35,879 bases of DNA, from the NCBI GenBank assembly GCA_945869825.1, contig CAMBQF010000014.1, positions 1 to 35,879 on the forward strand, written 5' to 3'. Origin of the DNA: Chitinophaga pinensis (GTDB lineage Bacteria; Bacteroidota; Bacteroidia; CAMBQF01). A program made the translations under genes and the position numbers. A model generated the notes under the pieces. It was given only the letters and a program-made list of their open reading frames with translations, did not search any database and was not told where the DNA came from. Within the stretch, counting starts at the first letter, position 1. Each line of letters begins with the position of its first letter. Below, piece after piece: positions 11,617 to 33,605 of this stretch.

Positions 11617-12000
11617 TTACTTTTTCTTTTTAGGAGCCGCTTTTTTAGCAACTGGTTTAGCAGTTACTTTTTTAGCTGGAGATTTTTTTACTGCCGGTTT
11701 TTTAGCGGCTACTTTTTTAGGAGCTGCTTTTTTTGCCGGAGCTGCTTTTTTTGCTACTGCTTTTTTTGCCGGAGCTGCTTTTTTAGCTACTGCTTTTTTA
11801 GGAGCTGCCTTTTTAGCTACTGCTTTTTTAGGAGCTGCTTTTTTTGCTGCTGGTTTAGCAGCTGCTTTTTTAGGAGCGGCCTTCTTAGCTGCAGGCTTTG
11901 CTGCTGCTTTTTTGGCTGGTGCAGCTTTTTTAGCTGCTGGCTTTGCAGCCGCTTTTTTCGCAGGAGCGGCCTTTTTTGCTGTTGAAGTTTTTGTTGCCAT
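11617..12000 (-). CDS. histone H1-like Lys/Ala/Pro-rich repetitive DNA-binding protein
   Basis: 127 aa almost wholly built of KKAAPAKKA / KKAAAKPAA / KKAVAKKAAP units. Confidence 0.85.
   Translation of the reverse strand: MATKTSTAKKAAPAKKAAAKPAAKKAAPAKKAAAKPAAKKAAPKKAAAKPAAKKAAPKKAVAKKAAPKKAVAKKAAPAKKAVAKKAAPAKKAAPKKVAAKKPAVKKSPAKKVTAKPVAKKAAPKKKK
11640..11975. repeat. degenerate tandem coding repeat (GCTGCTTTTTT-type units) within the H1-like gene
   Basis: Visible repetition of 'ggagctgcttttttagctactgc' style units; encodes the K/A repeats. Confidence 0.75.
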
Positions 12001-29822: not shown

Positions 29823-30001
29823 GCCGACAGCTTTATTACTTTTTGCTTGTCCAAAAAGTAACCAAAAAAGACACCACGCCGCATCAAGTGCGGGGCAGGC
29901 TCAAGCAAATACACTGCAATTTTGCTCTCGCACTAGGCTAACCACACTAATTGCCTTGCAAATCCCGATAGCTATCGGGATTGTGTCCGCAACGGGCGTG
30001 G
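29823..30001. repeat. structured intergenic element (copy 1), hairpin TTACTTTTTG-cttgtc-CAAAAAGTAA
   Basis: Shares GCCGACRGC...CTTTTTGCTTG..CAAAAAG.AA.CAAAAAA with the element near 33338; contains further stems. Confidence 0.6.
29961..29982. repeat. 22-bp perfect palindrome AATCCCGATAGCTATCGGGATT
   Basis: Read directly; equals its own reverse complement. Confidence 0.9.
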
Positions 30002-30152
30002 ACTACCCACACACAATATAATAAAACAGTATATGAATGCATTTTCGCTGGATGAGCATCCTCAATCAGATAATTTGGTAATAAGCGAATTAGATAATTA
30101 AATAATGTTGTAACTTTTGGGGTAGTAGTTGGTCTTACCAAAAACTACAAAC

Positions 30153-30812
30153 ATGCAACGGTTATCCTGTTTACTAATTATTTTTGCTGTTGGCCTTTTC
30201 GCTTGCGATAGCGAACCCGACAATGATCCCACTTCAGAATCATATCTACCATTAGCTGTTGGCAACTATTGGGTTTATAAAACATACTCGACAGATTCAA
30301 ACCAATATAATCCGTTAAACCTTACTTATATTCAAGAAGACAGTATTTATGTTGACCGATTTGAGATATTGGAAGACGATACATTTTATGTTTTAAAAGG
30401 TGTACCTGCGCATATGCTAGGAGAATATAATCAAAATGGAGAGGTCTACCTCCGAGATTCTTCGGAGGTTATATTTGGTATCAATAATAAGAAAATATTC
30501 ATGCCATTTTGGGGCAATTTATACAGGAATCTATATATTGATTATGGTACAACACAAAATGGAATACCGAGCATATATCGGGAGTATATAGAACACACAC
30601 CAGATGACTCATCTATCACTACTCCTCAAAGCACTATATATTGGATTTATCAGATATCAGGTTACTATTGTACAGATTACGATACAATTTTGAATGATCC
30701 AGGAGATTGTAATAAATTATTCAGTAGATATTTTGCACAAAATGTAGGTATGGTATGCGATTATGAGGGAGATAGCCTGTATGCTTTTCTTTCAAGGTAT
30801 CATATACAATAA
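30153..30812 (+). CDS. putative lipoprotein, unknown function
   Basis: MQRLSCLLIIFAVGLFAC|DSEPDNDP signal with lipobox LFAC; YLPLAVGNYWVYKTY motif common in Bacteroidota lipoproteins. Confidence 0.7.
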   Translation: MQRLSCLLIIFAVGLFACDSEPDNDPTSESYLPLAVGNYWVYKTYSTDSNQYNPLNLTYIQEDSIYVDRFEILEDDTFYVLKGVPAHMLGEYNQNGEVYLRDSSEVIFGINNKKIFMPFWGNLYRNLYIDYGTTQNGIPSIYREYIEHTPDDSSITTPQSTIYWIYQISGYYCTDYDTILNDPGDCNKLFSRYFAQNVGMVCDYEGDSLYAFLSRYHIQ

Positions 30813-30901
30813 TGCAATAAAGTACCATAATAGGTACAATTTGTCCATTGTAAAGGGTGTTGTTATTGCTGATATTTGCAGTGTACTTAAAACATACGGC
30901 T

Positions 30902-31774
30902 ATGAAAAAACAATTAATAATTACCGCATTTATCCTATTGGGTTTTACTGCCAATGCACAACTACTTAATATGGATTTTGAGAATTGGGACTCTACCGAT
31001 GTAGGGTACCCGCTACCCGATAACTGGGTTATTGGCCAGGGTACGGGGCAGTTTGGTATCTATAAGGATAACAATCCACAAAACGGTGCCTATGCCATGA
31101 CATTATCGCGCTGGTATTACTATACGTTTGACGATGCGGTACAATCGGCACCGGCACCCTTTAAACCGGCAGAGTTGAGCGGGCATTACCGCTACACCGA
31201 CAACCAAATAGTGCAAGGTGAAGAAGAGCCTTATAATGATACCGCACACGTATATGTATTTGCTACTAAATGGAATGTACAAAGCCAGCAAAGGGATACG
31301 CTGGGCCAAGGCAGCCTGGATTTGCACGGTGCTGAAAACTGGACATTTTTTAACTGTCCTATATACTATACCGGCAACGGGCTGCCCGATAGTGTTACCA
31401 TACTTTTGGCGCCAACGGAAAGACACTTAAACTCGCCCAACGGATTGTGTCTTGCAAGCACTGATGGATATTGCTCGTTTTTTACGGTAGATAATTTATC
31501 GCTATCGGAAACGGTTACCGATGTTGCAGAGAAGCCTGCCGATAGGTTTAAGCTTTACCCCAACCCTGCCAGTGATGAATTGTATGTTGGCACTAACAAT
31601 AACATGCAAACCTATGGTTATTTCATTTACGATGCGATGGGCAAAAGGGTTGGCAGTGGTAATTTAGGCACTGAGAACCGCCAGGTTGATATAACAGGTT
31701 TGGCTAGCGGGTTGTACACCCTGACTATATACGAAAATTACGAGGCAACAACATTGACATTTGTAAAACAGTAA
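30902..31774 (+). CDS. secreted protein with T9SS type A C-terminal sorting domain
   Basis: MKKQLIITAFILLGFTANAQ signal; LYPNPASDELYVG...ITGLASGLYTLTIYENYEATTLTFVKQ C-terminal domain. Confidence 0.85.
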   Translation: MKKQLIITAFILLGFTANAQLLNMDFENWDSTDVGYPLPDNWVIGQGTGQFGIYKDNNPQNGAYAMTLSRWYYYTFDDAVQSAPAPFKPAELSGHYRYTDNQIVQGEEEPYNDTAHVYVFATKWNVQSQQRDTLGQGSLDLHGAENWTFFNCPIYYTGNGLPDSVTILLAPTERHLNSPNGLCLASTDGYCSFFTVDNLSLSETVTDVAEKPADRFKLYPNPASDELYVGTNNNMQTYGYFIYDAMGKRVGSGNLGTENRQVDITGLASGLYTLTIYENYEATTLTFVKQ

Positions 31775-31815
31775 CTTGCTTTCTTCTGTTTAGTTCTAAA
31801 GTTTAGTTGAGTTAC

Positions 31816-31851
31816 AACCCTATATTTGAAAGTAATTTCAGCTATAGGGTT
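31816..31851 (+). promoter_or_regulatory. hairpin/inverted repeat in front of AraC-family gene, overlapping a TATATTTG element
   Basis: AACCCTATA-tt-TGAAA-gtaa-TTTCA-gc-TATAGGGTT; TATATTTG at 31821-31828. Confidence 0.6.
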
Positions 31852-31865
31852 ATTTATTTAGCAGT

Positions 31866-32726
31866 ATGAAAAAAGCGATACCCATACACGATTTTAACGA
31901 AGAGGACACCAAAAATGTGCCCGTACGCTACATTCAGCTAAACCCCCTAACTGAATATGATATAGCACCGCCACACCGCCATAACTATTACGAGGTATTC
32001 TTTTTTACCAAAGGCGGCGGCTACCATTATATAGATTTTGTGCAACACCCCGTGGCCGATAACAGCGTGCATATTGTATACCCCGGGCAGGTGCATGTGC
32101 TTAGCCGCGAGCTTAATACCAATGGAGCTGTAGTACATTTTTCGCGCGAGATTTATGATGATATCACCACCCAAAACGGACAACTTCCGTTGGTGCAATT
32201 TCTTAACAGCAATACCTTTTTGCATATAGAAAATACGCCCGAAGAACAGGACAAACTGAATACCGTTTTAACCCAGCTGAAAAGAGAATACCAAAGCAAC
32301 AACCCCGAGGCTGAGATATTAAAAGCCTACCTGCATATATTGCTTATAAAGTGTATTCGCCTGTTTGATAAAAAGCACCCCGATTGGCAGGAAAATGCTA
32401 CGGGCTTGTATAACGATTTTAGGGCCCTGGCCGAGGATAACTTCCTGGAACAGAAACAACCGGGCTATTATGCCGAGCGGCTTAAAATAAGCGAACGTAA
32501 GCTTAACGATATTTGTAAAAAAGCAACGGGTGTTACCGTGGGCGATTATTTAAATAACCGCATAATACTGGAGGCTAAGCGCCTGCTTTGTAACTCGCCG
32601 CTAACGGCAAAAGAAGTAGCGTTCTACCTAGGCTTTAACGACCCCTCTTACTTTAACCGCTTTTTTAAAATTAAAACGGGGCTTACTGCGCTGGAGTTTA
32701 GGCAGATAGCGGATAAGCGGGTGTAA
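31866..32726 (+). CDS. AraC-family transcriptional regulator
   Basis: N-terminal cupin-like PPHRHNYYEVFFFTKGGGYHYIDF; C-terminal HTH ERLKISERKLNDICKKATGVTVGDYLNNRIILEAKRLLCNSPLTAKEVAFYLGFNDPSYFNRFFKIKTGLTALEFR. Confidence 0.93.
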   Translation: MKKAIPIHDFNEEDTKNVPVRYIQLNPLTEYDIAPPHRHNYYEVFFFTKGGGYHYIDFVQHPVADNSVHIVYPGQVHVLSRELNTNGAVVHFSREIYDDITTQNGQLPLVQFLNSNTFLHIENTPEEQDKLNTVLTQLKREYQSNNPEAEILKAYLHILLIKCIRLFDKKHPDWQENATGLYNDFRALAEDNFLEQKQPGYYAERLKISERKLNDICKKATGVTVGDYLNNRIILEAKRLLCNSPLTAKEVAFYLGFNDPSYFNRFFKIKTGLTALEFRQIADKRV

Positions 32727-32729
32727 TAA

Positions 32730-33227
32730 TCAGGCTTTCTTTCCTTTATAGTCTTTAATACCGAATTTGGGTGGGTTTTGTTGTTCGTAGTACCCATCGA
32801 TGTAAAGCTCAGGGCCATAAGATGCTTTAACGGCTAACTGGTCGCAGCGGTTGTTTTCTGCATTTTCGGCATGGCCTTTTACCCAGTTGAATTTTACTTT
32901 ATGGTTGGCCATAACGGCTAACAGGCGTTGCCACAGGTCGGGGTTTTTTACTTCTTTCCAGTTTTTACGTACCCAGCCGGCAATCCACTTTTTCTCAATA
33001 GCATCAACTACATATTTAGAGTCGGAATATACATTGATATTCATTCCGGGGTTTTTAAGCTGCTCAATGGCTACAATAACGCTTAGCAACTCCATACGAT
33101 TATTAGTGGTGTAGCGGAAACCGGCAGCCAGCTCTTTGCGGTGCTGACCCGATAGCATAACAATGCCGTAGCCTCCCGGGCCGGGGTTGCCGCGCGCTGC
33201 ACCGTCTGTATAGATACTGATTTCCAT
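32730..33227 (-). CDS. rnhA: ribonuclease HI
   Basis: MEISIYTDGAARGNPGPGGYGIVM, TNNRMELLSVIVAIEQL, VYSDSKYVVDAI, WVKGHAENAENNRCDQLAVKA; the ORF track start at 33236 is TTG, ATG is 33227. Confidence 0.95.
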   Translation of the reverse strand: MEISIYTDGAARGNPGPGGYGIVMLSGQHRKELAAGFRYTTNNRMELLSVIVAIEQLKNPGMNINVYSDSKYVVDAIEKKWIAGWVRKNWKEVKNPDLWQRLLAVMANHKVKFNWVKGHAENAENNRCDQLAVKASYGPELYIDGYYEQQNPPKFGIKDYKGKKA

Positions 33228-33233
33228 TTGGGG

Positions 33234-33241
33234 CAAAATTA
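33234..33241 (-). promoter_or_regulatory. -7 element TAATTTTG, 6 nt before rnhA ATG
   Basis: Perfect TAnnTTTG. Confidence 0.4.
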
Positions 33242-33246
33242 CTGGA

Positions 33247-33281
33247 TTAATTCATAATGCAGAATGCAAAATTCAGAATGT
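33247..33281. repeat. degenerate heptamer tandem array (5 units)
   Basis: TTAATTC ATAATGC AGAATGC AAAATTC AGAATGT. Confidence 0.55.
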
Positions 33282-33337
33282 TTTAACTCATCAGCTTTTC
33301 TAAGGCAATAGAAAAACTATTTGTTGCTTTGTCCTTT

Positions 33338-33540
33338 GCCGACGGCACTTCCTTTTTGCTTGATCAAAAAGGAAGCAAAAAATCAACGGCTGATATTTCT
33401 CACCGACCTGCTACGGGTTGTGAGCTAAACCGCGCAAACTCGTCAACCTAAGGCTGACTCAAACAGTGCGCGCTTGCCTCCCCGCCAAGGCGTGGAGACG
33501 CTCACTTTCCTTGCAGGTGCCCGTCTCGAAATATAGGCCG
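33338..33540. repeat. structured intergenic element (copy 2), hairpin TTCCTTTTTG-cttgat-CAAAAAGGAA
   Basis: Hairpin 33349-33374; related to the 29823 element; downstream stem CTCAC...GTGAG. The 3' boundary is uncertain. Confidence 0.5.
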
Positions 33541-33605
33541 GACTTTATTTTCACAGATTACCATAGGACGAAATAATATGGAATTAATCTACCTGCGAAT
33601 AACTA

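Follow-up and report, generated by a model that had tools for sequence, protein, structure and literature searches.

What are the two hairpin-bearing elements at 29823..30014 and 33338..33541, both on the plus strand, of the 35,879 nt Chitinophaga pinensis contig CAMBQF010000014.1 (the whole of which is here termed the window)? Comparison of sequences shows that they belong to one family of short dispersed repeats, non-coding, chromosomal and about 165-250 bp in length, and makes it probable that the copies have spread as mobile elements that are non-autonomous and mobilised in trans. Each copy consists of a predicted H-type pseudoknot module, conserved at the 5' start of every copy, followed by a type-specific folded body that is closed by a long-range helix. 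Spread of the family is supported by its high and patchy copy number, by sites filled in one genome and empty in a relative, by exchanges of type and of interior, and by tandem arrays in one genome (G021).

A predicted pseudoknot module at the head of two element types

The first-pass annotation of the window, the coordinates of which are all correct on direct reading of the letters, had described two related elements that begin GCCGAC[A/G]GC, as indeed they do (GCCGACAGC at 29823-29831 in copy 1; GCCGACGGC at 33338-33346 in copy 2), and that then form a 10 bp stem. This length holds for copy 1; in copy 2 an outer pair, C33348-G33375, extends the stem to 11 bp. The A:T to C:G difference between the two stems is real, and is compensated on both arms. 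What the copies have in common is the 5' module; past the A-rich run they are of two types, rather than a single element. Their parts are as follows.

29823..30014, plus strand: copy 1, a type A element of about 190 bp; when aligned with type A copies of three genomes, its 3' end, GTGGACTACCC..CAC, is kept and stops at 30014
29836-29845 with 29852-29861, plus strand: stem S1 of copy 1, TTACTTTTTG/CAAAAAGTAA, around the loop CTTGTC (29846-29851), with compensatory changes across copies
29862..29869, plus strand: A-rich spacer L3 of copy 1, CCAAAAAA, between S1 and S2
29870..29873, plus strand: 3' strand of S2 in copy 1, GACA, pairing with TGTC of the loop (29848-29851) in the pseudoknot
29874..29880, plus strand: 5' strand of the long-range closing helix of copy 1, CCACGCC, with its partner GGCGTGG at 29995-30001, plus strand
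29879..29893, plus strand: nested hairpin of copy 1, CCGCATCAAGTGCGG, missing in most type A copies
29961..29982: nested perfect palindrome of copy 1, AATCCCGATAGCTATCGGGATT, where other type A copies have AATT
33338..33541, plus strand: copy 2, a type B element of about 205 bp
33348..33375, plus strand: 11 bp stem S1 of copy 2, CTTCCTTTTTG/CAAAAAGGAAG, around the loop CTTGAT (33359-33364)
33349-33358 and 33365-33374, plus strand: the arms of the inner 10 bp of this stem, TTCCTTTTTG and CAAAAAGGAA
33376..33381, plus strand: spacer L3 of copy 2, CAAAAA
33382..33386, plus strand: 3' strand of S2 in copy 2, ATCAA, pairing with TTGAT of the loop (33360-33364) in the pseudoknot
33387..33399 with 33528-33540, plus strand: closing helix of copy 2, CGGCTGATATTTC with GAAATATAGGCCG
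33431..33472, plus strand: inner arm of copy 2, CGCGC..GCGCG, with an internal loop formed by AAACTCGTC (33436-33444) and GACTCAAACAG (33456-33466)

The hairpin core is matched twice in the window, against an expectation of 0.04, and none of 100 shuffles contained two matches. Relative to dinucleotide shuffles, the fold energies of the copy 1 and copy 2 regions have z scores of -3.8 and -4.2 on the plus strand and of -2.6 and -4.7 on the minus strand; as both strands fold better than shuffles, folding does not tell which of them matters.

The earlier description recognised the hairpin, and missed the pairing of its CTTGNN loop with the bases immediately 3' of the A-rich run, which makes the structure an H-type pseudoknot. 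In its general form, the module has an S1 of around 11-13 bp that is A-T-rich beside the loop, an S2 of 4-6 bp joining loop to tail, and an A-rich L3; the S2 of copy 1 is only 4 bp (TGTC/GACA). Loop and tail are found to change together, in the sets CTTGAT..ATCAAG, CTTGAA..TTCAAG, CTTGAC..GTCAAG, CTTGGC..GGCCA, CTTGCC..GGGCA, CTTGCT..GAGCA, TTGTGC..GCACA and CTTGTC..GACA. With neither the loop dinucleotide nor the tail fixed in the search pattern, 57 distinct sequences were obtained, all from Bacteroidota or Clostridia, and 49 of them have a complementary tail; when loops were shuffled among tails, a procedure in which the relatedness of the sequences remains, the mean was 13.8 and the maximum 26 in 10,000 shuffles. 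Some copies in the sister genome CP096135.1 (Sphingobacteriales bacterium JAD_PAG50586_3, 4,155,772 bases, same genus) have an S2 that is wholly replaced yet still complementary, namely GGCAG/CTGCC and CGGCT/AGCCG. The loosened scan behind these copies was noisy overall, with 46 matches as against 28 in reversed sequence, and hence only matches having the full S1-L3-S2 anatomy were used.

S1 itself carries two-sided changes in six of its 11 pairs (38 cells, as against 8.5 in shuffles), and the outermost pair of the type B stem is A-U in eight of 17 copies and C-G in seven. The proposal of selection on structure, originally made from one compensated difference, is therefore supported by strong covariation in the stem beyond the two window copies. 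L3 tracks the stem: CAAAAA goes with CTTTTTG/CAAAAAG stems, and CAAAGAAAA with TTTCTTTG/CAAAGAAA stems, which could reflect an alternative pairing or else a third strand that lies against the stem. It is conceivable, if doubtful, that S2 acts as an exchangeable recognition code, both strands of which change together as S1 and L3 are kept, allowing a trans-acting factor or a partner strand to distinguish one element lineage from another; the family would then be a new class of selfish element, in Bacteroidota and some Clostridia, that trades bodies behind a common pseudoknot.

Behind the pseudoknot, type A elements continue as GACACCACG...CGTGGACTACCCACCGCAC. For most of the 52 copies listed, the flanking sequences become unrelated immediately beyond this point, the 3' end being sharp and common to them; the 5' side is variable. 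The type A closing helix is CCACG/CGTGG, of which CCAC/GTGG is invariant in 32 copies, with three pairs inside it covarying (C-G, A-U and others); that of type B is CGGC/GCCG. In type A and type B alike, covariation is seen in the closing helix and in the inner helices. The inner arm of type B surrounds the conserved internal loop AAACTCGTC/GACTCAAACAG, and each of its five pairs has compensatory changes. The loop motif is found behind pseudoknots in other Bacteroidota, at 14 of 120 in a diverse set and at none in reversed controls, and occurs in Cardinium. Some copies in Oscillospiraceae have parts in the type A order, CACCAGGGGGC...GCCCCCTGGAC.

These features bear on whether the elements move through RNA, with a transcript's 5' pseudoknot being recognised by a reverse transcriptase and copies inserting at a fixed 3' end. 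A sharp 3' end and varying 5' side would be consistent with this, as would the conserved bases of the type B internal loop and the A-rich L3 beside an A-U-rich stem, an arrangement typical of RNA pseudoknots. However, the two strands fold comparably well, and no reverse transcriptase was found among the recurrent neighbours of the pseudoknots, although no family-wide search for one was made; judged from sequence, such retro-mobility seems improbable.

Several smaller repeats are associated with the elements. Relative to most type A copies, copy 1 has two extra nested palindromes. The palindrome CCCGATAGCTATCGGG represents a separate family with several copies in the genome of the window (C120:1821-1845, C94, C24, C34 and C56), and is present in two type A elements, at 29961-29982 of the window and in the copy on C31 (L034); the shared A/T-rich position suggests that the palindrome inserts there. 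In CP096135.1, the palindrome CCCGACGATAAATGTCGGG lies within the L3 of a pseudoknot module as a nested insertion (C1:772722-772739, L285). The AAACTC-hairpin-CTTCAAACA arm of Cardinium cBcalN2 (L413) also occurs alone, lacking the pseudoknot and in both orientations, as an independent repeat module. The elements of the Clostridia bin Lapin-022 (L085, L101 and related loci) are very uniform and at least 290 nt long; their pseudoknot is preceded by a GC-rich hairpin, and conservation extends to ..CTACTACGCAGGAAC. The tandem arrays of G021 (L211, L212 and L213) are made up of type B-like units of about 250 and 380 bp, some of which are separated by the hairpin TTTTCTTTTCAAGAGAAAAGAAAA.

Copies, sites and neighbouring genes

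Had no further copies been found, the original proposal of an element would have failed; at least 13 are present at different loci in the genome of the window (2.98 Mb, 189 contigs), around 61 in CP096135.1 and many elsewhere. In CP096135.1, the core pattern has 61 matches, against one for a reversed-pattern control; five TCTTTG-type matches and one type B core match, all on the minus strand, lie within 20 kb of each other (3458358-3477524). The exact pattern is found in at least 118 stretches of GTDB contigs, among Bacteroidota, Clostridia/Oscillospiraceae and Cardinium. The distribution within the phylum is patchy: using model R1 with a threshold of E<=1e-4 and strict filters, 22 of 297 Bacteroidota genomes had matches. 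The richest genomes were Cardinium cBcalN2 (G358; 99 matches in a 1 Mb genome), Bacteroidales bin-499 (57), Clostridia Lapin-022 (G349; 45), Taibaiella soli (34), G047 (27) and an Oscillospiraceae bin (G351; 22), several of which are metagenome bins in which a contaminating contig could inflate some of the counts. By the same criteria, none of 195 other genomes of the class to which G351 belongs had a match. Searches of viral contigs, phages and plasmids gave no match to the element; a Proteobacterial version of the hairpin was not found in viral contigs, the sole place where it was sought.

Comparison of orthologous intergenic regions, a check proposed in the first-pass annotation, revealed sites that are filled, empty, or occupied by the other type or by a swapped interior. 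Between rnhA and an aminotransferase-family gene (Pfam), which we take to be kbl, encoding 2-amino-3-ketobutyrate CoA ligase, the element of the window is of type B and that of the sister genome G002 is of type A, with orientation unchanged; neither type is present there in CP096135.1. At purH, as read by eye, a type A element in the window corresponds to the 5' module with the start of a type B body in G002. The C105 site is filled in the genome of the window and in G002 and empty in CP096135.1, and at a second site a copy in G002 corresponds to an empty site in CP096135.1. The C1 site has type B in two genomes and type A in a third. At the C108 site, both ends are common to the genome of the window and G002, with the pseudoknot and body differing.

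Some observations weigh against a mobile origin. The sister genomes are only about 80-95% identical, and because their flanks are so diverged, exact insertion junctions, including those at empty sites, and any target duplication are not readable; loss, gene conversion and vertical inheritance could also explain how the sites differ. Furthermore, no recurrent gene family lies beside the 153 pseudoknots surveyed, except for two-component genes, which are common anyway. A recurrent neighbour as autonomous partner was rejected as a candidate on these grounds.

Copies are intergenic, are not tied to any particular gene and occur in every arrangement of flanking genes. With neighbouring genes called by a simple open reading frame (ORF) rule, 24 of the 61 copies for which both neighbours could be called lie between convergent genes. 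Along with the strong structural covariation, this would suit a structured element, either a small RNA or part of an mRNA 3' end, that the host retains for a role in regulation or in the stability of transcripts and that ordinary recombination has multiplied. Such an origin is nevertheless very unlikely, given that bodies are replaced at orthologous sites, that sites are gained or lost, that the neighbours are unrelated genes in all orientations, and that Rfam 15 has no match at the element at either gathering or relaxed thresholds. The repeats overlap small spurious ORFs. Elsewhere in the window, a 127 aa low-complexity ORF on the minus strand (11617-12000) is composed of 15 nt repeats and is Ala/Lys-rich and, by eye, histone H1-like.

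Candidate routes of mobilisation

One candidate route is that the elements are of the repetitive extragenic palindromic (REP) type, moved by RAYT/TnpA-REP or IS200-like Y1 (HUH) transposases acting on hairpins in single-stranded DNA; Y1 genes are present in the genome of the window and its sisters. In one type A subfamily of CP096135.1 there is a strand bias between the chromosome halves (29 of 35 copies; 5 of 2000 shuffles), which hints at a replication-linked, single-strand step. However, the bias was identified post hoc, is not significant in other subfamilies, and depends on chromosome arms that are poorly defined by GC skew: one switch, near 2.9 Mb, matches the bias, and the other does not. 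Matches to PF01797 (Y1) are absent from three copy-rich genomes, those of Cardinium (99 copies), Lapin-022 (45) and the Oscillospiraceae bin (22). The Y1 genes in the genome of the window are flanked by other short palindromes, with no element beside the three that were checked, and the only element match on the 20 kb stretches holding the three Y1 genes of CP096135.1 lies about 11 kb away. Mobilisation by RAYT or Y1 enzymes is therefore disfavoured, principally because of the three copy-rich genomes that lack them, and we consider it quite improbable.

The three Y1_Tnp genes in the genome of the window, on C9, C120 and C47 (L051, L052 and L053), have their own short palindromes (CCCCGGCCTTTAGGTCGGGG, GGGCTTTAGCCC and CCATGGTTTCAACCATGG), and are probably REP/RAYT systems distinct from the pseudoknot elements. 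Structures reported in PMC6006769 to lie near tnpA genes of subclass 2.6 in Bacteroidetes might be related to the pseudoknot elements.

The favoured alternative remains that of small non-autonomous elements, in which the folded pseudoknot strand, whether RNA or single-stranded DNA, would be recognised in trans by an enzyme. Recombination between copies would exchange bodies behind the common 5' module, and any role for the host, for example in the processing of 3' ends or in mRNA stability, would be secondary.

Relation to known repeats

Searches of the open-access literature, by sequence and by topic, did not find the element. Among known systems, REP sequences and the BIMEs they compose, with their RAYT (TnpA-REP) enzymes, are likewise short palindromic, intergenic, multi-copy and patchily distributed repeats of the chromosome, which presumably move in the form of single-stranded hairpins. 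However, there is no GT[AG]G foot at S1, type A copies instead having CTTTA, TTTCA and similar sequences 5' of it; the element is a pseudoknot with a body of 100-150 nt, whereas a REP is a hairpin of 20-40 bp; and the association with Y1 enzymes is wanting in the genomes and at the genes described above. Miniature inverted-repeat transposable elements (MITEs) and the small mobile sequences of enterobacteria (RU-1/2/3 and ERIC) are similarly about 100-250 bp long, non-coding and dispersed, and are presumably moved in trans. The present family resembles MITEs in being short, non-coding, multi-copy and variably present between relatives, but it lacks terminal inverted repeats, the type A 5' sequence ATTACTTTTTG and 3' sequence CCCACCGCAC not being inverted repeats of each other. 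H-type RNA pseudoknots with an A-rich third loop, such as ToxI-type antitoxin RNAs, also have a stem whose loop pairs, over an A-rich connector, with a strand farther downstream; unlike these short tandem repeats beside a toxin gene, the element is dispersed between genes and has a large, variable body.

Hence the element is in kind with REP, ERIC and MITE-like repeats, and what is new is that its pseudoknot covaries, that bodies are exchanged between copies and that it is spread over two phyla. Many copies lie at contig ends, such that these repeats appear to break assemblies. A pseudoknot conserved through compensatory changes in the intergenic repeats of two phyla, with around 100 matches in a 1 Mb endosymbiont genome, offers a handle on an undescribed way in which small pieces of DNA multiply, and the mover, if found, could be a new nucleic-acid enzyme.

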